DNA from: Planctomycetota bacterium
GTDB taxonomy: Bacteria > Planctomycetota > Phycisphaerae > Phycisphaerales > SM1A02
Reading direction: 5' to 3'
Assembly (NCBI GenBank): GCA_022574595.1
Contig: JACZRS010000011.1
Span: 1 to 64,000 of the forward strand
DNA length: 64,000 nucleotides
Made by a program: the position numbers and the translations under genes. Below the pieces are notes generated by a model. The model was not told the origin of the DNA. It saw nothing but the letters and a program-made list of their open reading frames with translations, and ran no database searches. Numbering within the stretch: the stretch's first letter is position 1; each line of letters starts with the position of its first letter. Below, piece after piece: positions 27,975 to 37,129 of this stretch.

Positions 27975-28046
27975 GCCACCGTAGCTCAATGGTAGAGCAG
28001 CGGTTTTGTAAACCGCAGGTTGTGAGTTCGAGTCTCTCCGGTGGCT
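27975..28046 (+). tRNA. tRNA-Thr (TGT)
   Basis: 72 nt. Acceptor stem GCCACCG/CGGTGGC with discriminator T; anticodon stem GCGGT/ACCGC with loop TTTGTAA, anticodon TGT. T-arm has GTTCGAGT-type bases. It is the integration site of the 9.1-kb element downstream: its 3' 45 bases recur at 37085-37129. The 3' half present here is probably supplied by the element. Confidence 0.95.
28002..28046 (+). repeat. attL: 3' half of tRNA-Thr
   Basis: 45-bp segment from the anticodon stem to the discriminator base. It matches 37085-37129 at 42 of 45 positions (differences at CCG[C/T]AGG, GTG[A/G]GTT and GTC[T/C]CTCC). It marks the left boundary of the integrated element. Confidence 0.9.
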
Positions 28047-28082
28047 ATCTTAAAGGGGGTTTTTCACCAACTTGGTGCAATA

Positions 28083-28102
28083 CTTAGCAAGCACTTGCCA
28101 AA
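28083..28102 (+). repeat. Arm-like site, copy 1
   Basis: CTTAGCAAGCACTTGCCAAA, 37 bp inside the left attachment site. An exact inverted copy is at 28504-28523 and two close variants are at 35451-35470 and 36943-36962. Confidence 0.75.
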
Positions 28103-28148
28103 GTTGCCATCATTCTATGTAGCGTGCCATCATAGGCATACAGCCTAA

Positions 28149-28332
28149 TTTGTGTCACCCTACTTTATACTAGGGATATTTGGGATTTTTTAACGGGTAG
28201 CGATATATAGATAGCACACAATAAAAAAAAGTCTGGGCATATACCGGTAACGTGGTGACACAAACGCTAAGTCCAGTATTGACAAAGGTTTTTATGTCAC
28301 CACGCCATTAGGTGACACAAAGGTGACACAAT
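28149..28332 (+). repeat. Iteron-like repeat cluster, left
   Basis: GGTGACACAAA occurs at 28254-28264 and 28311-28321, with GGTGACACAAT directly next to the latter at 28322-28332, and inverted at 28149-28159. A partial copy (ATGTCACC) is at 28294-28301. The same motif recurs downstream of the Prim-pol gene. Tandem and inverted copies of an 11-bp motif fit replication-initiator binding sites. Confidence 0.7.
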
Positions 28333-28503
28333 GCCATACTGCTAGCTGCTAAGGGATAGGGAATAGTGGTGAGTTAACCCCACTCGCGCACTACAACTAC
28401 AATATCGCACGCACGCGAGGCAGCCAGCACGGTTATTTAACTAACGATATGCACCTGCACACTATTAAGTTTCAAGCCTGAGATAATGCGAATAACTACA
28501 ACG

Positions 28504-28523
28504 TTTGGCAAGTGCTTGCTAAG
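28504..28523 (-). repeat. Arm-like site, copy 2 (inverted)
   Basis: On the minus strand this reads CTTAGCAAGCACTTGCCAAA, identical over 20 bp to copy 1 and inverted relative to it. Confidence 0.75.
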
Positions 28524-29049
28524 TTTTAGAGTAAGTGAGCAAATATCAGCGTTTGAATAGCAGTAATGCTGTTCGGCGCAGGTTGACTTAACCTATGCTC
28601 GACCTTGAACGCTATTCACTACTCAAAGTACGACCACGTTAATATCAAGCTCATTGCATTGGAATGGACGCAGCAGAATCACTTGTGCTGGCGTTCAGTT
28701 GAGTAAGTGCTATCTATGTGCATTGAAAACAGACGGCAGCACAAAAGCTACCAGGCGTTGTCTTGGTTGCTGATATACCGACTCGCTCCCAAATCCTTCC
28801 CAGACGACCCGGCTTTTATTTAAAACGTTTAAAGTTAACCCTCCCCTTACGCACTACCACTATTGTTTATCACACAACGCAATAACGTTAAGGAGCTTCA
28901 TTATATAAACGCTGCTGAAAAGTTGGGGGGGAAATTGACGGTCGTTACGACACGGCACGAATACTTATAATTCCCGTGGAATTTGACAACCAAGCTATGC
29001 GTCTTATTATTAGCGGGGACAATTGATGTATTTGGGTAAAGGATGGAAA

Positions 29050-29259
29050 ATGAACGATTACGATTTGCAAACACAAAGTGAACTAGCTATTTCAATGGAT
29101 ATACACGCATGGCGGATTTCTTATGTTGTTATTTCTCGCAAGATTAAGCCAACTGCCATAATCGGCGGTACGCGATTTTATAACACAGAAGCGCGTCAGG
29201 AGATTATTGACAAACTTTCGACGGTTCAAGCCAAGCGTTCGAGGGTTGAGATTAGATAA
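29050..29259 (+). CDS. Small MerR-like helix-turn-helix protein of the element
   Basis: 69 aa from ATG 29050, preceded by AAGGATGGAAA; starts at 29023 or 29026 would add nine or eight residues. The body reads SELAISMDIHAWRISYVVISRKIKPTAIIGGTRFY, the pattern of a short MerR/excisionase winged helix (helix-turn-helix followed by a wing with G-x-R-x-Y). It is the first gene of the element and could control excision or replication copy control. Function is inferred from fold only. Confidence 0.6.
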   Translation: MNDYDLQTQSELAISMDIHAWRISYVVISRKIKPTAIIGGTRFYNTEARQEIIDKLSTVQAKRSRVEIR

Positions 29260-29425
29260 GCTGTACAAGCGGAAAGGTCAGGGATGACACACAAGAAAAT
29301 ACCGTACAGATATAAACGCAAGTACATACCAAAAAGAGGAAACTTAGGGTTTTCATATAGGCAATTTGCCGAAATTCTTAGGCCAGGTCTACTAAACAAA
29401 TTATCACTAGGAAAGGATACAAACA

Positions 29426-30364
29426 ATGATTCTCCAAATCGAAATAACGGATAAGGAACAGGCCCAGGCTTGGACAGATTTACAATTGCTGATGCGGAAA
29501 ATGGCTGAGGGCAATATGAAATTCTCAAGTCAGCAAGATGCAATAAAACAATTGTGTGCGGTTTTAAGATGTTATAGCAAACAGGCCGAGGGTTCGCCAC
29601 AACGATGGTTTAAGTGTATAAAAAAAGGTATTGCTGTTGAAGTTGAATTGCGAGCGTCGAAGTTCCAGCAGTTAAGAGAAAAAGCGTTGCAAGATTCCAG
29701 AGCTGCCAATTCTAAAGTAGACAAGTTCAAGCAAGCAAACGAAACTAAACTGCAGCAAATTAACGCAGCCGATAGCAAGTCGGCACTCTTAAAAAGTGAA
29801 TTGTTGGCTTTGCAAGATACCGCACGAAAAGCTGAAGACGTTAAAAGTTCGCTGGAAGATCGGGCAACCTCTTTTTATAATGTCTGCGTCGAATTTCCAA
29901 GTGCCTTTATTCCCTATAAGCCCTGGCATGAAGCTGAACCACCAAGGCCAGCCAAGGTGGTTGAAACGCGACTGGTTCCAACGTTCAATAACCTGCCTAT
30001 ATTCTACACCATCATGCATATTTCACAGCGGTTGGTCGGGGACAGGTACGGTAGTTTGGGGCCTTTGACATTCTTGTCACTGAAGCCTGCTGAGGCATAT
30101 GCAACTAGCCTGGGTGATAATTATATCGCGTTCAAGAGCGTACTTACTGCTGTGTCGCTTGTTGAGTTTACTGTCGAATCTTGCCGCCCCGCGTTTCTGG
30201 ATTTGAAACCCAACGTGCCACTAGGTGAGGGAATGTGCCTGTTCGATAGGCCCGTATTCAAACAATTCTCGCCTAATATCAAGGACGAGACAGACCAGGA
30301 AGAATGGCGCGATGCAATTATGCGAGAAAAAACCAATCAATTGATAACCACAACAGAAAGGTGA
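29426..30364 (+). CDS. Element ORFan with coiled coil
   Basis: 312 aa; ATG preceded by AGGAAAGG. I do not recognise a family. Residues ~70-150 are strongly helical and charged (LREKALQDSRAANSKVDKFKQANETKLQQINAADSKSALLKSELLALQDTARK, written here only as a pattern of heptads), so a coiled coil is likely. The remaining C-terminal ~160 residues look globular, with Trp/Pro-rich FIPYKPWHEAEPPRPAK and SLKPAEAYATSLGDNY. The stop is 6 bp before the next start, so it is in an operon with the acidic protein that follows. Confidence 0.6.
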   Translation: MILQIEITDKEQAQAWTDLQLLMRKMAEGNMKFSSQQDAIKQLCAVLRCYSKQAEGSPQRWFKCIKKGIAVEVELRASKFQQLREKALQDSRAANSKVDKFKQANETKLQQINAADSKSALLKSELLALQDTARKAEDVKSSLEDRATSFYNVCVEFPSAFIPYKPWHEAEPPRPAKVVETRLVPTFNNLPIFYTIMHISQRLVGDRYGSLGPLTFLSLKPAEAYATSLGDNYIAFKSVLTAVSLVEFTVESCRPAFLDLKPNVPLGEGMCLFDRPVFKQFSPNIKDETDQEEWRDAIMREKTNQLITTTER

Positions 30365-30370
30365 ATAACA

Positions 30371-30769
30371 ATGACACAAGATACCTTAAATAATGAATCA
30401 GAACTCGACTTGCTCGCTGAGGAAGCTGCTACGCAAACTAGCGAACCAAACCCTGCTGTTAACAGGCTGGATGATGATGACGAGATTGAAGCTAACGAAG
30501 AACGTCAAGCACTTGTTGACGAGATTGATGGACTCCTTGAGGAAAAGGAGTACGATGCGGAAGCTGACTCAGAGGAAGAAGAAGCAATTGCACAAACTGA
30601 TTTGGAATGGCAACGTGAACAAGCTGCAGTTCACCCCATGGATGGCATAAGCGAAAACAGTGCTAGATGCCCTAGTGAAAAGGCGACAATTCAAGCTCTC
30701 GCCGATATGTTGCCGAGCGACGCACAGCGACAAGAATTTGACGACGAAAGTTTGAAAATGTTAGACTGA
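30371..30769 (+). CDS. Small highly acidic element protein
   Basis: 132 aa, very rich in Asp and Glu (LDDDDEIEANEERQALVDEIDG, DAEADSEEEEAIAQTD). ATG at 30371 follows GAAAGG. There is no hydrophobic segment or known motif. Acidic proteins of this size in mobile elements often mimic DNA or bind basic partners, but that is inference. It lies between two ORFans with tight spacing. Confidence 0.55.
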   Translation: MTQDTLNNESELDLLAEEAATQTSEPNPAVNRLDDDDEIEANEERQALVDEIDGLLEEKEYDAEADSEEEEAIAQTDLEWQREQAAVHPMDGISENSARCPSEKATIQALADMLPSDAQRQEFDDESLKMLD

Positions 30770-30811
30770 ATTATGCTTACAGCGTATTGGATTGCGCGGA
30801 AAGGAACAGTG

Positions 30812-31441
30812 ATGGCGGGACAACCGATACGCAAGGCTAATGAGTTGAGTTTGCTAGCGGATGCCGCATTTGAAGCCTTAAAAATGGCCTGCGATATTTG
30901 TCCTGAACACTACTTATCGGATAAAGAATTTCCCCCGAACAACGCGATTGCATGGGGATGGCGTGGCACTGTCACACAAGCACGCAATTTGTTGATTGAT
31001 GCCGAGAATTTAGAGTCGTTGCTGTACGCCAAAGCAGAATTGCCGAGTCCTGCTGTGCGCGACGAATCGGTTTATGAAGATGATGCACTTAACTTTCCAG
31101 CGGTTCAGCAGGCGGCTACTTTGCAAGCCGAACTATCGCCGACAGAGGACGATGATGTGCTTATCACTACTACCTGTTCGGACGTGGACTCGATTCGCTG
31201 GGTAATTGAGAATTTGGAAAAACCAAATGTCAATAAACAGGATTGCCCCAGTAATACCGCTTGGACATTGTTCAAATGGGCTTTGTCGAATCCCGTCAGC
31301 AAGGCCGAATTTATCAACAAGTCGTGGTCTAAATTACTACCCACTGGAAAACAAATGGACGACATGGTGCGAATGCAGGACGATGGTACAAGTACATTAG
31401 AATTGATAGCGAGGATACAGGAAGCAACGAAAGGCGACTAA
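30812..31441 (+). CDS. Element ORFan
   Basis: 209 aa from ATG 30812, preferred because AAGGA lies 7 bases upstream; ATG 30773 has no such site. The protein is soluble and mixed helical (LSLLADAAFEALKMACDICPEHYLS, VTQARNLLIDAENLESLLYAKAELP, CPSNTAWTLFKWALSNPVSKAEFINKSW). I do not recognise a family. It ends the first gene block of the element. A TATAAT (31448-31453) just after the stop could belong to the next transcript. Confidence 0.55.
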   Translation: MAGQPIRKANELSLLADAAFEALKMACDICPEHYLSDKEFPPNNAIAWGWRGTVTQARNLLIDAENLESLLYAKAELPSPAVRDESVYEDDALNFPAVQQAATLQAELSPTEDDDVLITTTCSDVDSIRWVIENLEKPNVNKQDCPSNTAWTLFKWALSNPVSKAEFINKSWSKLLPTGKQMDDMVRMQDDGTSTLELIARIQEATKGD

Positions 31442-31510
31442 ATTTGGTATAATTTTTCACTGGGTAGCTAGATAGCTTCTAGCGTGCGGAAGGGTTTGCT
31501 AGTGTTGATT

Positions 31511-31554
31511 GCGTATCCCACTAGCCAGCCTAACCGGCCCACAAAGGGATACGC
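31511..31554 (+). promoter_or_regulatory. Inverted repeat covering the ribosome binding region of the next gene
   Basis: GCGTATCCC (31511-31519) pairs perfectly with GGGATACGC (31546-31554). The right arm contains the AAGGG-like ribosome binding region, 2 bases before the ATG at 31557. In RNA this 9-bp stem would hide the site; in DNA it could be an operator. Confidence 0.5.
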
Positions 31555-31556
31555 AG

Positions 31557-32180
31557 ATGAACACAACGGATAATCAAAAGAAGAACGCAGCCGAAGTGCT
31601 TAATGCCTTGCGCACGTTTCATAAGACTCAGAACACTTGGGACAAGTTAAACCTATCTAAAGCTCCAAACGAGCTTCGGGAGCCAGCCTGGAAAGACCTT
31701 AAATCAGCAGCGAAAGGGCTTGCGACTGATTTAGATATGGATTTGGGTAGTGAAAAACTGCGCGGTGCTATGTATGTGGTTCGCCAGCACGCAATAACCC
31801 AAACCCTTGACAGAAAACTACTCTCTTTTAACGAACAACGGATATTGTCCGATGCCTTGCAGATTGCGGAAGATGAGCTTCGCACAATAGCAGATATAAA
31901 GCAAAAGCCATTCGTCGATAGAGTTGCGGAGATAGTTGCGAGAAATAAGGCAGCAACAATTAAAGAACCAAAAGTAAGCAAAGGCTGGAAGGAACCAGAC
32001 GGTTATGTTTTTGCCGATGCGATTTGGGGACTAGATGGCGAGAAAATATCACGACGAACCGTTGCTGGGTGGGCTAAAACAGATAACCCCGACAGAGTAC
32101 AAGACCCTAAGACAAAAGCGGTTTACTATCGCAAGGTGTGGGTAGATGGACGAGTCAGAAAACACAAACGTAGAACGTAA
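31557..32180 (+). CDS. Element protein with C-terminal helix-turn-helix-like region
   Basis: 207 aa from ATG 31557; a TTG at 31509 lies inside the upstream inverted repeat and is less likely. The N-terminal ~150 residues are helical and uncharacterised. Residues ~165-207 read KISRRTVAGWAKTDNPDRV...VYYRKVWVDGRVRKHKRRT, which looks like a DNA-binding helix-turn-helix followed by a basic tail. A role in element regulation or replication is inferred. The gene is followed by palindromic TACGTATACGTA (32187-32198), a possible operator for this or the next protein. Confidence 0.55.
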   Translation: MNTTDNQKKNAAEVLNALRTFHKTQNTWDKLNLSKAPNELREPAWKDLKSAAKGLATDLDMDLGSEKLRGAMYVVRQHAITQTLDRKLLSFNEQRILSDALQIAEDELRTIADIKQKPFVDRVAEIVARNKAATIKEPKVSKGWKEPDGYVFADAIWGLDGEKISRRTVAGWAKTDNPDRVQDPKTKAVYYRKVWVDGRVRKHKRRT

Positions 32181-32186
32181 CTGAAC

Positions 32187-32198
32187 TACGTATACGTA
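32187..32198. promoter_or_regulatory. Palindromic TACGTATACGTA, possible operator
   Basis: A perfect 12-bp palindrome with a further TTACGTA at 32208-32214, lying upstream of the excisionase-like gene at 32271. Use as an operator is inference. Confidence 0.35.
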
Positions 32199-32270
32199 AC
32201 AGCCACTTACGTATTGCCTATGTACAGGTAAGCAGAATAAGGTTCCTAAACTAACTTTGGAGCCTTTTAT

Positions 32271-32459
32271 ATGCCAGCAAAAACAAAAACAAGAACATTG
32301 CAAACCGCACGGGACGTTGCGGAGCGCTTTGGTGTTTCCGTTACTACGGTACGGCGGTGGGTACGCGCGGGGAGGATACCTTACATCCGCGTTTCCAGGC
32401 GAGTTATCAGATTTGACTTGGACGAAATTGAAAGAGTTGCAGCCTGCGAGGTGGGCTAA
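32271..32459 (+). CDS. Excisionase-type helix-turn-helix protein
   Basis: 62 aa; ATG is 9 bases after a GGAG-containing site (TTTGGAGCC). The protein reads LQTARDVAERFGVSVTTVRRWVRAGRIPYIRVSRRVIRFDLDEIERV: the HTH_17/AlpA-like fold of excisionases and small phage regulators. In such elements this protein usually directs excision or activates the integrase. It is a separate family member from the one at 35162, so the element encodes at least two. Confidence 0.75.
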   Translation: MPAKTKTRTLQTARDVAERFGVSVTTVRRWVRAGRIPYIRVSRRVIRFDLDEIERVAACEVG

Positions 32460-32522
32460 TACTGCGCAAAAGTAAAGCCCGCTGTTGAAGCAACGGGCCA
32501 AGACAAAGATTGGTAGCTGACA

Positions 32523-32738
32523 ATGCTTAATTCAAGAAGTAACTTTAACTCATTCGACGACGGAAGCAAATCTACTCAAGAACATAGTGCAAATATACAT
32601 AGAAATACGCGACAGAGCGGTTCGACTAGCTTTAGCCATAAGCTGCGACTTATCAAATTATGCCACAGCAGCGATGAAGCGGTAGCGCTTGCTGCGACTA
32701 TTGCTTGCCTAGAACTGCAAGCCAGGGGGGTAATGTGA
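32523..32738 (+). CDS. Small element protein overlapping the Prim-pol start
   Basis: 71 aa, Ser-rich at the N-terminus, then helical (LRLIKLCHSSDEAVALAATIACLELQARGVM). Its stop TGA overlaps the first base of the next ATG (GTGATG), suggesting coupling. It has no recognised domain and only a weak ribosome binding site; it could be a translational-coupling leader peptide rather than a working protein. Confidence 0.4.
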   Translation: MLNSRSNFNSFDDGSKSTQEHSANIHRNTRQSGSTSFSHKLRLIKLCHSSDEAVALAATIACLELQARGVM

Positions 32739-35029
32739 TGAGTACCGCAGCAACAGCAGCATCAAACTACTTTCAGCGTGGTTGGCGGCCTGTCCCTATT
32801 CCATATAAACAGAAAGGCCCAAAAGTCAACGGTTGGCAGCGCCTTCATGTCACAGAGGCAAACTTATCGCAATACTTTAACTGCCAGTTGATGAACATTG
32901 GTGTTCTTGTCGGCCCGCCATCTAAACTGATAGATATTGACTTAGACAGTCCCGAAGCCGTACGGCTTGCTGGGCAACTACTTCCCCCAACAGGTTCCAT
33001 ATTTGGGCGTGCCGGTAATAGGAACTCGCATCGTTTATACACCACCGACGAATTTGACGGCGCTGAGTCAGTTAGACACAAAGATAATGAAGGCAAGTCC
33101 ATTGTCGAACTGCGATGCAGTAGTGGGCTGCAAACTGTATTTCCTGATTCCGTGCATCCAAGCGGTGAACGAATTGAATGGGAGTTAGACGAAGAACCCC
33201 AGTCGGTTAATTTACCTCAACTAGCCGGTGCTGTTCGTGAACTTGCAGTAGCCTGCCTATTACTAAGGCACTATCCCAGCGAGGGTTCACGACATGAACT
33301 TGCACTATCACTTGCGGGGTGGTTACTTCGGCTAGGTTGGTTAGTAGCTAAGATAGAATACTTTATCGAAGTTGTTGCAGAAGCAGCGGGCGATGATGAA
33401 ATACAGGATAGAATTAGAGCAGTCGTCGATACTAAAAGTAAAATAGACGGGGGCGAGCTAGCTACAGGCTATCCGAATTTCAGCAAACTGATTGGCGTAG
33501 ATATTGCCAAGACTATTTCAAACTTGTTAAAGTCTGGGGATACAGCACCAACACTGAAATTCAATATCGAACAGACCCCTGGTTTAACAAAGTCAAAAGT
33601 GACAGCAGTTCTTGATGATGAAGTAATTGAAGTTGATACGTTTAACGTAGAAACAAGTGCAAAACGAACAGCCTTTGCAAAGATAGTACACGGACTAGCG
33701 CCTCACTTTGAACCTGCATATATCGAAGGCGAACTGCTAAAGGCAGCAACAACACGGCCAGATACAACGGCTGTTGATAAATCACTATCACGCGCTGAAT
33801 TGCTAGCAGAACGTGACCTTGAAACCGAACAGGCACTAGCAGCAATGCCCGCAGATATTGTTGGCGAGGCCGAGTTGATGCTGCAAGACGAACAACTTAT
33901 CGAGACTATCTACAAAGACATTGGCGCGCTTGGTGTTGTTGGTGAACGTAATACGGCGCTTGCAGTTTATGTCGCAGGTACTTCGAGGCTACTGGATAAA
34001 CCGTTATCAACTGTAACGCAAGGCACGACTTCCAGCGGTAAGAGCCACACAAATAACAGAGTAGCCGAACTATTCCCGCCAGAGTGCAGAATGAATGTAA
34101 CCAGTATGTCGGCGCAGGCTCTTTACTATCTTGAACCTGGAAGTCTTATTCACACTTTTGTAGTACATGGCGAAAAGTGCCGTATTCAAGACGACTCGCA
34201 GGTTGAAATGACGCGCGCACTACGGGAATTACAAAGTGAAAATGTGCTAGATAAAATAGTGACAACTACGCAAGGAGGTATTCCCGTAACCAAGCGTATA
34301 CACCAAGACGGGCCAATTGCATACTGTGATACAACTACTCTAACCGACCTATTTGACGAAGATAGCAACCGAGTCCTTCAACTATCAACCGACGAAGGGC
34401 AAGAACAAACTGCTAAAGTCAAACAGCAAATAGCCGAAGCAGCTCAGTACGGTACGGTTGATACTTCCCGCACTATTTTAATTCACCACGCATTACAAAG
34501 ACTGCTAAAGCGAGTACAAGTCACAATACCGTTTGCGATAAAGTTAAACGCAGCTATCCCCAGTGATAAGACGCAGGCGCGCCGAGCTACTTCGCATATT
34601 TTTGAAGTAATTAAAGCGGTATCATTGCTTCATCAGAGACAGCGATTCGCTGGGGAAATTCAGCACGGGTTTACTATCGAAGCTACTTTGCGAGATTATG
34701 GAATTGCGCGCGACCTACTTATTGGGCCATTAGGTAGAAGTCTTGGCGGTGCAATGCAGCCTGCACTAGTGAACTTATTTCGACGACTGCAAGACCGGTA
34801 TGCCATCAGTGAGGTTTTCACCACAAGCGAGGCGGCTCTTAGCGACCCCAATGTGAAAAGCAAAAAGATGGCTGCAAACTTGCGGACTATTGCTGACACT
34901 GGGGGGGCTATCGAATTAGTCGAAGCAAACAAAGGCTGCAAACCCAGTAAGTGGCGCATTGTTGGTGAACTGCCAGAACAGGCTGAGATATTCTTACCTG
35001 AGGCTGTAGAATTGGGGGATATATCGTGA
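32738..35029 (+). CDS. Prim-pol replication protein with helicase-like C-terminal domain
   Basis: 763 aa from ATG 32738, with GGGGGG upstream. Residues ~1-170 are a bifunctional DNA primase/polymerase domain (YFQRGWRPVPIP, MNIGVLVGPPSKLIDIDLDSPEA; the catalytic acidic pair is D66/D68). The C-terminal half has a Walker A motif, GTTSSGKSH near residue 430, within a region like the helicase/ATPase parts of Prim-pol replication proteins. Family members in plasmids and phage satellites prime and drive replication from iterons. Iteron-like repeats lie both at the element's left end and directly downstream of this gene. This is the strongest sign that the element can replicate outside the chromosome. 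Confidence 0.8.
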   Translation: MSTAATAASNYFQRGWRPVPIPYKQKGPKVNGWQRLHVTEANLSQYFNCQLMNIGVLVGPPSKLIDIDLDSPEAVRLAGQLLPPTGSIFGRAGNRNSHRLYTTDEFDGAESVRHKDNEGKSIVELRCSSGLQTVFPDSVHPSGERIEWELDEEPQSVNLPQLAGAVRELAVACLLLRHYPSEGSRHELALSLAGWLLRLGWLVAKIEYFIEVVAEAAGDDEIQDRIRAVVDTKSKIDGGELATGYPNFSKLIGVDIAKTISNLLKSGDTAPTLKFNIEQTPGLTKSKVTAVLDDEVIEVDTFNVETSAKRTAFAKIVHGLAPHFEPAYIEGELLKAATTRPDTTAVDKSLSRAELLAERDLETEQALAAMPADIVGEAELMLQDEQLIETIYKDIGALGVVGERNTALAVYVAGTSRLLDKPLSTVTQGTTSSGKSHTNNRVAELFPPECRMNVTSMSAQALYYLEPGSLIHTFVVHGEKCRIQDDSQVEMTRALRELQSENVLDKIVTTTQGGIPVTKRIHQDGPIAYCDTTTLTDLFDEDSNRVLQLSTDEGQEQTAKVKQQIAEAAQYGTVDTSRTILIHHALQRLLKRVQVTIPFAIKLNAAIPSDKTQARRATSHIFEVIKAVSLLHQRQRFAGEIQHGFTIEATLRDYGIARDLLIGPLGRSLGGAMQPALVNLFRRLQDRYAISEVFTTSEAALSDPNVKSKKMAANLRTIADTGGAIELVEANKGCKPSKWRIVGELPEQAEIFLPEAVELGDIS

Positions 35030-35108
35030 TTTGTGTCACCATACCGTCACCAAACCGCAAGGTGACACTAAAGTCTTTATGCTGCAAAGACTTACAGTTT
35101 GTGTCACC
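35030..35108 (+). repeat. Iteron-like repeat cluster, right
   Basis: GGTGACACAAA is inverted at 35030-35040 and 35098-35108, and a variant GGTGACACTAA is direct at 35061-35071. A further CGTCACC is at 35045-35051. The first two copies can pair as a hairpin. The cluster starts at the stop codon of the Prim-pol gene. Confidence 0.7.
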
Positions 35109-35161
35109 GCGCAATCAGCATACCTCCAGGTTTTTTTTATTTACGACTCAGCGGGGTAGTG

Positions 35162-35410
35162 ATGGCTGAGTTAAGTCTAATTCAAAGTCCAATAGCAGTC
35201 GGTGCTAAAGGCGCAGCAGGAATGTTCAGTATGAGTGAACGCAACTGGCGCAGGCTTAATTCTAGTGGCCTTATTCCGTCCCCAATACGAATTAACGGGG
35301 CTGTTAGATGGCTGGTTTGTGACTTAAACCTTTGGGCAAAGCGCGATTGTCCGACTCGCGCAGTATTTGAACAGCAACGGTTGCAGGAACCTGAGACAAA
35401 GGCGCTTTAA
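35162..35410 (+). CDS. AlpA-like regulatory protein
   Basis: 82 aa from ATG 35162; the upstream frame would add 21 residues with no support. The protein contains GMFSMSERNWRRLNSSGLIPSPIRINGAVRWLVCDLNLWAKRDCP, typical of AlpA-like winged helices of phages and satellites (Ser/Thr-x-R-x-W-x-R-L, then x-G-x-x-R-W). It lies between the replication gene and the integrase promoter, a usual place for an excision activator. Confidence 0.75.
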   Translation: MAELSLIQSPIAVGAKGAAGMFSMSERNWRRLNSSGLIPSPIRINGAVRWLVCDLNLWAKRDCPTRAVFEQQRLQEPETKAL

Positions 35411-35450
35411 CATACCTTTACGGCTATTTATGGGTGTTTTGATGTTAAAA

Positions 35451-35470
35451 CTTGACAAGCACTTGCCAAA
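35451..35470 (+). repeat. Arm-like site, copy 3, overlapping the integrase promoter
   Basis: CTTGACAAGCACTTGCCAAA; 18 of 20 bases agree with copy 1. It contains the TTGACA box of the promoter at 35452-35479, so a protein bound here would repress the integrase. Confidence 0.75.
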
Positions 35471-35479
35471 CCTTACTAT
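35452..35479 (+). promoter_or_regulatory. Integrase promoter
   Basis: TTGACA (35452-35457), 16-bp spacer and TACTAT (35474-35479). The first start codon of the integrase lies about 100 bp downstream. The -35 box is inside the arm-like repeat. Confidence 0.6.
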
Positions 35480-35488
35480 TTGGTTGTC

Positions 35489-35594
35489 GAAACCCTCACC
35501 TAATTCATTCGACTACAAACTTGGTATCTGCTCGGCTGATTGTTTCCGTGAGGGTTACGACTCGGTTGGGCAGATACCTTATGGAAACCCTCAC
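35489..35594 (+). promoter_or_regulatory. Structured integrase leader with overlapping complementary segments
   Basis: Five segments occur in order: AACCCTCAC (35491-35499), GGTATCTGC (35523-35531), GTGAGGGTT (35548-35556), GCAGATACC (35570-35578), AACCCTCAC (35586-35594). Segments 2 and 4 pair over 9 bp. Segment 3 pairs with either 1 or 5 over 9 bp. Both pairings cross the 2-4 helix, so the RNA could form a pseudoknot, or switch between forms that do or do not include the start-codon region at 35581-35596. Confidence 0.6.
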
Positions 35595-36852
35595 AATGTC
35601 TGACACAACAAAACAAAAACGTAACCGAAAAGAAAACCCACACAGCGGTTTTAGCCTAGCTCGGCCAGTCTACAAAGCCAGTGACGGCAAAAAACGCAAG
35701 AGCGCAATCCACCACGCTCGATTCAAAGATGTCGCGGGCATATGGCGACGGCTGCCACTGTTCACTGATGCCCAAAGCTCTGCCGCATTTGCTCGAAAGT
35801 TAGTGCTGGTTGTTTCACTTCGCGCAGCAGGTGAATCACTAGGTGCTGAGCTATCCAGGTGGACAGACAGCCTTGCACCAAAGTTAAGGGACCGACTGGT
35901 TCTTTGGGGGATAGTTGAACAACTACAAATTGAAGTCGTTAAAACTTTACTTGAGCATATGGACGACTGGAAACAGTCAGTTAAAGACACTGGCAGCGGA
36001 GAAAATAACGCAAAGCTGCGATACACAAGAGTTAAAAAAGTCTTATTATACGGTTGCGGATACATTCGGTTTACTGATATTGATAGTCTTCACGTGACTG
36101 CGTATCTAGCTGCAATGAACTGTGCTACTAGGACAAGAAACCACTTTAACGGCGCATTAAGACAATTTTGCAAATTCATGGTAAAGAATAAGTTTGCAAC
36201 TCATTCGCCACTGGAAACGCTAACAAACGTAAAAATAACAGACGAAAAACGCCGTCGTTCGCTAACTGCCAAAGAATTTACCAAGTTATTGCAAACAACT
36301 CTAAACGGCCCTAAAGACGGAGTAGATAGTCCAATAGTCGGGGGTATGAGTGGTTTTGAACGTTCAACACTTTACTGGTTAGCAAGCGAAACCGGATACC
36401 GCAGAAACGAAATTGCGTCACTTACTAAAAGCAGTATCAACTTGGACAGCGTACCAGCAACGGTTGAGGTTCTAGCAAACGCAACAAAGAACAAACGAGA
36501 CAGCAAACTATCAATTACAGGCGAACTAGGGCAAAGGCTAAAAACACTCTTACGGGGTAAGTCGCCAGCAGCACCGGCGTTCAAAATGCCAGAAAAGACT
36601 GCACAAATGATAAAACAAGACTTGGAACAGGCTGGTATCCCATTTATTACTCAAGACGGGCGGTTCGATTTTCATTCTTTAAGAGTGCAACTCGCGGCTA
36701 CTTTGATACGAGCAAATTGCAATATCAAAGTGGTTCAAAGCAGACTACGCCACCAAGACTCTAAACTTACTTTGGATATTTATTCAAGGTTAGGCCAGTC
36801 AGAAGTAGACGCTGCCGCTGTTGCAGCACTGCCAAGAATGAACATTGCGTAA
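35581..36852 (+). CDS. Tyrosine recombinase (integrase) of the element
   Basis: 423 aa from ATG 35581 (ATG 35596 would give 418); a TTG at 35452 overlaps the promoter and is rejected. The N-terminal ~130 residues are basic and likely bind arm-type DNA. The catalytic domain shows Arg in ETGYRRNEIASL, the His-x-x-Arg pair in FHSLRVQLAATLI, a His in RLRHQDSKLTLDIYSRL and the nucleophilic Tyr in DIYSRL. It would recombine the 3' end of tRNA-Thr with a site on the circular element. The gene ends 232 bp before attR. A terminator follows. Confidence 0.88.
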   Translation: METLTMSDTTKQKRNRKENPHSGFSLARPVYKASDGKKRKSAIHHARFKDVAGIWRRLPLFTDAQSSAAFARKLVLVVSLRAAGESLGAELSRWTDSLAPKLRDRLVLWGIVEQLQIEVVKTLLEHMDDWKQSVKDTGSGENNAKLRYTRVKKVLLYGCGYIRFTDIDSLHVTAYLAAMNCATRTRNHFNGALRQFCKFMVKNKFATHSPLETLTNVKITDEKRRRSLTAKEFTKLLQTTLNGPKDGVDSPIVGGMSGFERSTLYWLASETGYRRNEIASLTKSSINLDSVPATVEVLANATKNKRDSKLSITGELGQRLKTLLRGKSPAAPAFKMPEKTAQMIKQDLEQAGIPFITQDGRFDFHSLRVQLAATLIRANCNIKVVQSRLRHQDSKLTLDIYSRLGQSEVDAAAVAALPRMNIA

Positions 36853-36914
36853 TGACGCTGGGGGGGGCTGAGATAACCCTGTCCACGTACACTCAAAACA
36901 CACTTCGCGTAACT

Positions 36915-36938
36915 ACCCGCCTAACCAGCGGGTTTTTT
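36915..36938 (+). terminator. Rho-independent terminator of the integrase gene
   Basis: ACCCGC (36915-36920), a 7-nt loop and GCGGGT (36928-36933), running into TTTTTT. It stops transcription from the element before the right attachment site. Confidence 0.75.
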
Positions 36939-36942
36939 AATA

Positions 36943-36962
36943 CTTGACACACACTTGCCAAA
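36943..36962 (+). repeat. Arm-like site, copy 4
   Basis: CTTGACACACACTTGCCAAA, about 120 bp inside the right attachment site, the same distance class as the arm sites at the left end. Confidence 0.7.
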
Positions 36963-37084
36963 CAGTAGTCCTTTTATGTCCGTAATTGGCCGTGCATGGC
37001 AGTTTGTGTTTTGTAGTAATACGTGAATAACAGCAATAAACGGCTATTTAACGTTATTAGACGACTTTTCTATTTACTTAATTT

Positions 37085-37129
37085 GGTTTTGTAAACCGTA
37101 GGTTGTGGGTTCGAGTCCCTCCGGTGGCT
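37085..37129 (+). repeat. attR: duplicated 3' end of tRNA-Thr
   Basis: 45 bp matching the last 45 bases of the tRNA-Thr gene with three differences, each a transition. The displaced original 3' end of the tRNA is expected here. It marks the right boundary of the element. Confidence 0.9.

Follow-up and report, generated by a model that had tools for sequence, protein, structure and literature searches.

An integrative element in tRNA-Thr of a planctomycete, with a PrimPol joined to a predicted MCM-like helicase

Cryptic integrated elements of the PrimPol-PV1 group encode an archaeo-eukaryotic primase (AEP) of the PrimPol type fused to MCM, DUF3987, or other helicase domains (Kazlauskas et al. 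2018, PMC5862659). They carry an integrase between direct repeats that lie mostly in tRNA genes, and class iii of these elements lacks phage and conjugation genes (PMC5862659). A further AEP-MCM fusion, BcMCM of Bacillus cereus, is found in a prophage (PMC4538821). Here we describe an element of 9,083 bp (one repeat plus the interior) inserted in tRNA-Thr of a Planctomycetota bacterium (assembly GCA_022574595.1), within a 64,000-nucleotide stretch of contig JACZRS010000011.1 that is referred to as the window. With a probability of about 75%, we consider it a self-replicating, not self-transmissible, integrative plasmid-like element that belongs to a planctomycete element family; its replication modules and probable origin repeats favor a plasmid-like nature.

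Boundaries, replication protein, and candidate origin

ARAGORN and Rfam placed tRNA-Thr(TGT) at 27975 to 28046 (+), rebuilt by attL, and the displaced tRNA-Thr 3' end forms attR at 37085 to 37129 (+). The shared core at 28002 to 28046 and its copy at attR make a 45-bp direct repeat with 42 of 45 positions identical. In a search of the whole host assembly (4.09 Mb in 31 contigs; completeness 96.4%, contamination 3.1%) with the tRNA, the strongest other match was the attR copy (E 5e-13), and when the region was shuffled by mononucleotides 2,000 times, the best 45-nt match was 27/45. The repeat encloses plausible genes on the + strand only. The GC content at third codon positions (0.42 in the element, 0.43 in the host) gives no sign of foreign origin. 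The two copies of the repeat are distinguished by a single base in the anticodon stem and by a compensatory change of one T-stem pair (A-T in attL, G-C in attR), which would suit tRNA ends with separate histories in different genomes better than a duplicate in decay.

The order mnmG, tRNA-Thr, tRNA-Tyr, tRNA-Pro is kept in three genomes of the host's family (G008, G023, and G022), with 543, 2,480, and 6,179 bp, respectively, between tRNA-Thr and tRNA-Tyr; a fourth (G018) has the Thr, Tyr, and Pro genes with a Thr-Tyr spacing of 1,320 bp. In the window this spacing is 9,241 bp, or 158 bp once the element is removed. Between tRNA-Thr and tRNA-Tyr, none of the four genomes contained a match to the window integrase.

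The integrase (35596 to 36852, +, 418 amino acids, with ATG 35596 as the most likely start) matches PF00589 at 3e-13, retains the catalytic residues R, K, HxxR, H, and Y, and is 39% identical to the integrase of another island in the same genome (E3, below). Two small helix-turn-helix (HTH) proteins accompany it. HTH62 (32271 to 32459, +) matches PF12728 (HTH_17, 1.9e-12) and, in NCBIfam, the excisionase-type domain TIGR01764, and it is 82% identical to its counterpart in E2, another island of the genome (below); it also matches a terminase-small-subunit profile (4e-7), more weakly than the excisionase profile. An 82-amino-acid AlpA-like protein (35162 to 35410, +), the candidate directionality factor, gives a weak match alone (PHROG excisionase, 0.0017), has homologues at 31-43% identity, and is 43% identical to one at locus L049 that matches HTH_17 at 7.5e-6. 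Scans of the open reading frames (ORFs) against Pfam, NCBIfam, PHROGs, and PADLOC returned no virion, lysis, or defense families, and no relaxase or conjugation genes were among the Pfam matches of the element. PADLOC gave HTH similarity only, and defense cargo was rejected. The original prediction, an integrative element bounded by a 45-bp repeat of the tRNA-Thr 3' end, with genes in a single direction, an integrase, two or more excisionase/AlpA/MerR-like proteins, and a Prim-pol replication protein but neither transfer nor virion genes, is borne out, with two AlpA/excisionase-type proteins identified, the second of them through its homologues. The variation among relatives that it had named as a check is also seen, with four same-family genomes lacking a matching integrase at the locus and a smallest gap of 543 bp.

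Of special interest is the replication protein (32738 to 35029, +). The ORF opens at TTG 32705, and ATG 32738, which gives 763 amino acids, is the most likely start. The PrimPol domain occupies residues 19-166 (PF09250, 4.4e-13, passing the cut-off) and was the sole Pfam match in the 774-amino-acid protein read from TTG; DUF3987 was not matched. Neither Pfam nor NCBIfam recognized the last 476 residues, and a sequence search of solved structures in the PDB yielded nothing credible for either half of the protein; PHROGs gave a weak match of the last 476 residues to a family of unknown function (7.8e-4). An AlphaFold2 model of this half, built from a 34-sequence alignment (predicted local distance difference test [pLDDT] 89.6, predicted template modeling score [pTM] 0.79), matched MCM helicases at a Foldseek E value of 5e-10 and, in VIA-align, with Z ~23 over ~280 residues (root-mean-square deviation ~3, 8-13% identity). 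The C-terminal half is therefore predicted from its modeled fold to be an MCM-like AAA+ helicase, with room in the list of fold matches for other AAA+ families. The Walker A motif reads GTTSSGKS in the window, with GKS kept in all aligned sequences, and the C-terminal end of the model appears to have a winged-helix pattern.

Short repeats point to where replication might begin. There are seven exact copies of GTGTCACC in the window, all within the element (1.16 expected), and the exact 11-mer TTTGTGTCACC has six copies in the 4.09-Mb genome, five of them within the element. With one mismatch allowed, eight iteron copies fall into two clusters at 28149-28332 and 35030-35108. Cluster A, of the TTTGTGTCACC type, has copies at 28149(+), 28254(-), 28291(+), 28311(-), and 28322(-). 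Cluster B (feature 35030 to 35138) has copies at 35030(+), 35061(-), and 35098(+) beside a T8 tract and follows the helicase gene immediately. Each of the two clusters has an A8 or T8 tract next to it, in mirror arrangement. The PrimPol-helicase plasmid pRN1 requires a 166-bp stretch on the downstream side of the replication operon (PMC4234260). Cluster B is probably the replication origin, at a position that recurs in related elements, and cluster A probably a second binding region.

These features suggest how the element might persist. The integrase and the AlpA-like directionality factor would excise it as a 9.08-kb circle, on which the winged-helix end of the PrimPol-helicase would recognize the iterons and open the DNA beside them. 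The same protein would prime synthesis, to be completed by a host polymerase, and the integrase would limit its own expression via an arm-type site that overlaps its promoter. Spread to other cells would depend on a helper or on passive uptake. Neither virion nor mobilization genes were detected in the element, and the host genome had no match to Terminase_6N (the one terminase family searched) and none to PF03432 (the one relaxase family searched), so helper-dependent movement is likely.

Relatives, exchanged modules, and accessory genes

When 84,980 species genomes were scanned with the helicase alignment, 39 loci came up. Planctomycetes are named in the titles of 37, and the other two (L121 and L130) are titled only "bacterium." Within the class, 298 genomes were sampled, and 16 of them, the host included, carry the helicase. 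Its neighbors include AlpA-like genes, a primase of the TOPRIM type (Toprim_2, 2e-7 and 2.6e-5), and a tyrosine integrase, which is located at the genes for tRNA-Leu, Phe, Gly, Asn, Ser, Thr, His, Arg, and other tRNAs. Perfect repeats delimit an element of ~10.1 kb in tRNA-Asn (L104) and one of ~5.2 kb in tRNA-Ser (L132). Related helicases also occur on two circular plasmids: an 11.3-kb plasmid of Lonsdalea (NZ_CP072857) and one of 8.8 kb in Shigella (NZ_CP055112). On both, a XerC-type recombinase is encoded close to the helicase, which in Lonsdalea is fused to a CHC2-TOPRIM primase. Among viral contigs, no relative came up when either half of the protein was used as the query by itself, and the helicase alignment was positive on 1 of 2.9 million (IMG/VR). 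At five loci (L008:8813-10468, L052:10371-11810, L049:6706-8262, L132:4464-6107, and L120:8256-9875), the integrase frame enters the tRNA gene, and integration may thus change the C terminus of the protein.

A repeat array was scored where the first 400 bp behind the helicase gene contained four or more copies of one 8-mer. Such arrays were found at 12 of 34 helicase loci and, by the same measure, in 23 of 1129 other windows (Fisher p 2.5e-11, which is only a guide because the loci have common ancestry, although most of the loci have different motifs). The pattern at L052 and L131 had been seen by eye before testing, so these two are not independent, and the other ten are. At L119, where a PrimPol gene accompanies the helicase, there is GTGTCTCA, which is close to GTGTCACC. 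At L123:7116-9500, a second array (GGTGAACC/CGGTTCAC) lies ~1.6-2.4 kb behind the helicase gene in addition to the array directly behind it. The helicase gene of the lone positive viral contig (L135:8029-9291) also has a repeat array directly behind it.

Primases and helicases of these elements occur in all four pairings of PrimPol or TOPRIM with the MCM-like helicase or DUF3987, three of them in the host genome. PrimPol is fused to the MCM-like helicase in the window, L097, and L054 and encoded in a neighboring gene at L119, so a pairing unique to the window was rejected. PrimPol with DUF3987 is found in E2, at tRNA-Met of the host genome, and a CHC2-like/TOPRIM-like protein with DUF3987 in E3, at tRNA-Leu (CHC2 0.0011 and Toprim 0.097, both under the Pfam cut-offs). 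TOPRIM with the MCM-like helicase occurs at many of the remaining helicase loci. A broader generalization, that these loci form a phylum-wide planctomycete family of minimal replicating integrative elements with an MCM-like helicase, interchangeable PrimPol and TOPRIM primases, and iteron origins that are specific to each element and lie directly behind the helicase gene, some of the elements being satellites of planctomycete phages, is offered tentatively and, taken as a whole, is rather unlikely.

The host genome contains at least five tRNA-linked islands, and the window element (E1) has genes in common with three of the others. E1 and E2 share two DNA blocks (72% and 67% identical) over the end of orf223, HTH62, and the end of PrimPol, with no further common block detectable between them. 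E1 and E3 have the integrase and an AlpA-like protein in common, and E1 and E5 have orf312, orf222, and perhaps orf132. E5 (G000:C25:64392-84102, L152-L153) spans 19.7 kb between perfect 51-bp tRNA-Arg repeats and encodes an integrase, a DnaB/AAA_25-like protein, an 1861-amino-acid ORF with ParB-like similarity, and the relatives of orf312 and orf222. A portal-protein match of the 1861-amino-acid ORF was not counted, since the matched residues are common with ParB-like profiles. The other three tRNA-linked islands are at L006:4045-9918, L007:8451-14119, and L008:3300-10474 (tRNA-Met, -Leu, and -Lys), each with one end set; no tRNA repeats were found for E2, E3, and E4, whose far ends are not set.

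The original prediction called the ORFans at 29426-31441 unrecognized, which goes somewhat too far. None of the element's four ORFans matches a library family, but relatives in other mobile elements are found for three of them and a weak match for the fourth. In E5, orf312 (29426 to 30364, +) has a relative at 27% identity (E 3e-20), next to which lies a weak relative of orf132 (30371 to 30769, +; E 1e-4). The N half of orf222 (30773 to 31441, +) is 44% identical to an E5 ORF, and its C half occurs in eight other genomes of the class; a single-sequence fold of this protein (pLDDT 48.8) was too poor for use. The C-terminal domain of orf223 (31557 to 32180, +) is common with E2 (47-49%). A small ORF at 29050 to 29259 (+) matched no family.

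A 21-bp motif (up to three mismatches) that may be the arm-type site of the integrase has four sites in the element, with 0 expected, and five in the whole genome. Three candidate sites, at 28082 to 28102 (+), 28504 to 28524 (-), and 36942 to 36962 (+), would flank the attachment site in the circle form. The fourth, at 35450-35470, overlaps the -35 box of the putative int promoter TTGACA-16-TACTAT (feature 35450 to 35479, +). KplE1 IntS represses its own promoter via such sites (PMC2951348), and from this overlap the integrase here probably limits its own expression. A second promoter-like sequence, TTGACA-16-TATTAT (11/12 consensus match), precedes the gene set at 28983 to 29010 (+), and a terminator-like hairpin follows int at 36915 to 36933 (+).

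Elsewhere in the host genome (G000:C3, ~37.76-37.89 kb), L169:9852-9888 matches window positions 28081-28117, which include an arm-type site, over 37 bp at 92%, and L169:9763-9790 matches 28163-28190 over 28 bp. Both lie just 5' of tRNA-Ser(GCT), with no window-element genes detected near them, and could possibly be the scar of a related insertion.

Alternative readings

Several observations weigh against a self-replicating element. The Walker B position reads GE in the helicase family, with the MCM aspartate replaced by glycine, so helicase activity is not assured. The window has three exact 8-mer copies behind the helicase gene, under the threshold of four, and is not among the 12 loci with arrays. 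Cluster A adjoins attL, and cluster B also precedes the AlpA-like gene, which means that both could instead be operators of a regulator. The 3 differences in 45 positions between attL and attR mean that the insertion may be old and its sites worn. Other DNA of 2.5 and 6.2 kb is present at the locus in two relatives, which makes it variable for further reasons too. The GC content at third codon positions (0.42 in the element, 0.43 in the host) gives no sign of foreign origin.

A possible alternative, though an unlikely one, is a phage satellite resembling the phage-inducible chromosomal minimalist islands (PICMIs), in which a helper phage would induce the AlpA-like protein, followed by excision, replication by the element's own primase, and packaging in helper particles without capsid genes of its own. 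The combination of int, alpA, and a primase is the PICMI core, and these three genes are needed for PICMI transfer, with no capsid genes carried (PMC10803314). E2, in the same genome, pairs PrimPol with DUF3987, a primase profile of the PICMI model. Set against this, the window element itself has no DUF3987 and no recognizable packaging, interference, or capsid-remodeling gene, its helicase is on just one of the 2.9 million viral contigs, and the single terminase family searched was absent from the genome.

We consider it less likely still that the repeats are AlpA or excisionase operators rather than an origin, with the PrimPol-helicase serving repair or defense in an element that only integrates and excises. 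The placement of cluster B directly before the AlpA-like gene and of cluster A among integrase arm sites would suit such operators, and replication of the Thermus element ICETh2 was unaffected by loss of PrimPol (PMC7693054). Elsewhere in the family, however, at L052, L098, and L107, the AlpA-like gene is upstream of the primase and the array is still behind the helicase gene, so it is the helicase gene that the array accompanies.

An integrative and mobilizable element, with a conjugative helper acting on its oriT, is improbable. Non-autonomous tRNA islands of similar size are often mobilized by conjugation, which speaks for this reading, and the lack of a relaxase in the element and of PF03432 (the family searched) in the genome speaks against it. 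Finally, the idea that the repeat is a local tRNA duplication around ordinary chromosomal genes, compatible with a repeat that covers only the 3' part of the tRNA with three differences, can be dismissed given the integrase, the relatives without the element, the conserved flanks, the related delimited elements in other tRNAs, and the compensatory G-C pair of attR, a change that a formerly functional tRNA end should show; comparative synteny speaks against it too.

Comparison with known systems

PrimPol-helicase integrative elements are already known, and a literature search yielded no account of them in Planctomycetota. The window element adds one that is precisely delimited and tied to a phylum-wide helicase family, in a genome whose islands point to exchange of primase and helicase modules between elements. 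The position of a replication origin can be predicted for many related elements. This allows a test of whether MCM-like initiators recognize origins in organisms other than archaea and eukaryotes, and it could yield a replicon as a genetic tool for a phylum that is difficult to work with.

P4-like satellites likewise have an integrase, AlpA, and a primase-helicase. P4 has two iteron regions, ori and crr, which the two iteron clusters of the window element resemble, but an MCM-like helicase takes the place of the P4 helicase here, and no P4 morphogenesis genes were seen. PICMIs resemble the element in small size, in combining int with AlpA/HTH_17 (PF00589, PF12728) and a primase, and in having no capsid genes. 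They differ in inserting next to fis rather than in tRNA-Thr, in using DUF3987/DUF5906 primases (DUF3987 being found here in E2 and E3) rather than PrimPol, and in having a demonstrated helper phage. The absence of relaxase and conjugation genes from its Pfam matches separates it from integrative and mobilizable or conjugative elements.

The Lonsdalea and Shigella plasmids are similar in size (8.8-11.3 kb) and carry a helicase 31-34% identical to that of the window near a tyrosine recombinase; they are free plasmids of other hosts with SymE-type cargo, and in the Lonsdalea plasmid a CHC2-TOPRIM primase stands in PrimPol's place. BcMCM likewise combines an AEP primase with an MCM-like helicase and is encoded by an integrated element, with the helicase likeness here at fold level only, and differs in its prophage context. 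With the class iii PrimPol-PV1 cryptic elements, the window element has in common PrimPol (PF09250), an integrase, att direct repeats, and no phage or conjugation genes among the main ORFs (PHROGs, Pfam, NCBIfam). The main text of PMC5862659 does not mention planctomycetes. A further difference from the PrimPol-PV1 elements is that the helicase family described here is paired more often with TOPRIM primases, and in a third of its loci a repeat array lies behind the helicase gene.

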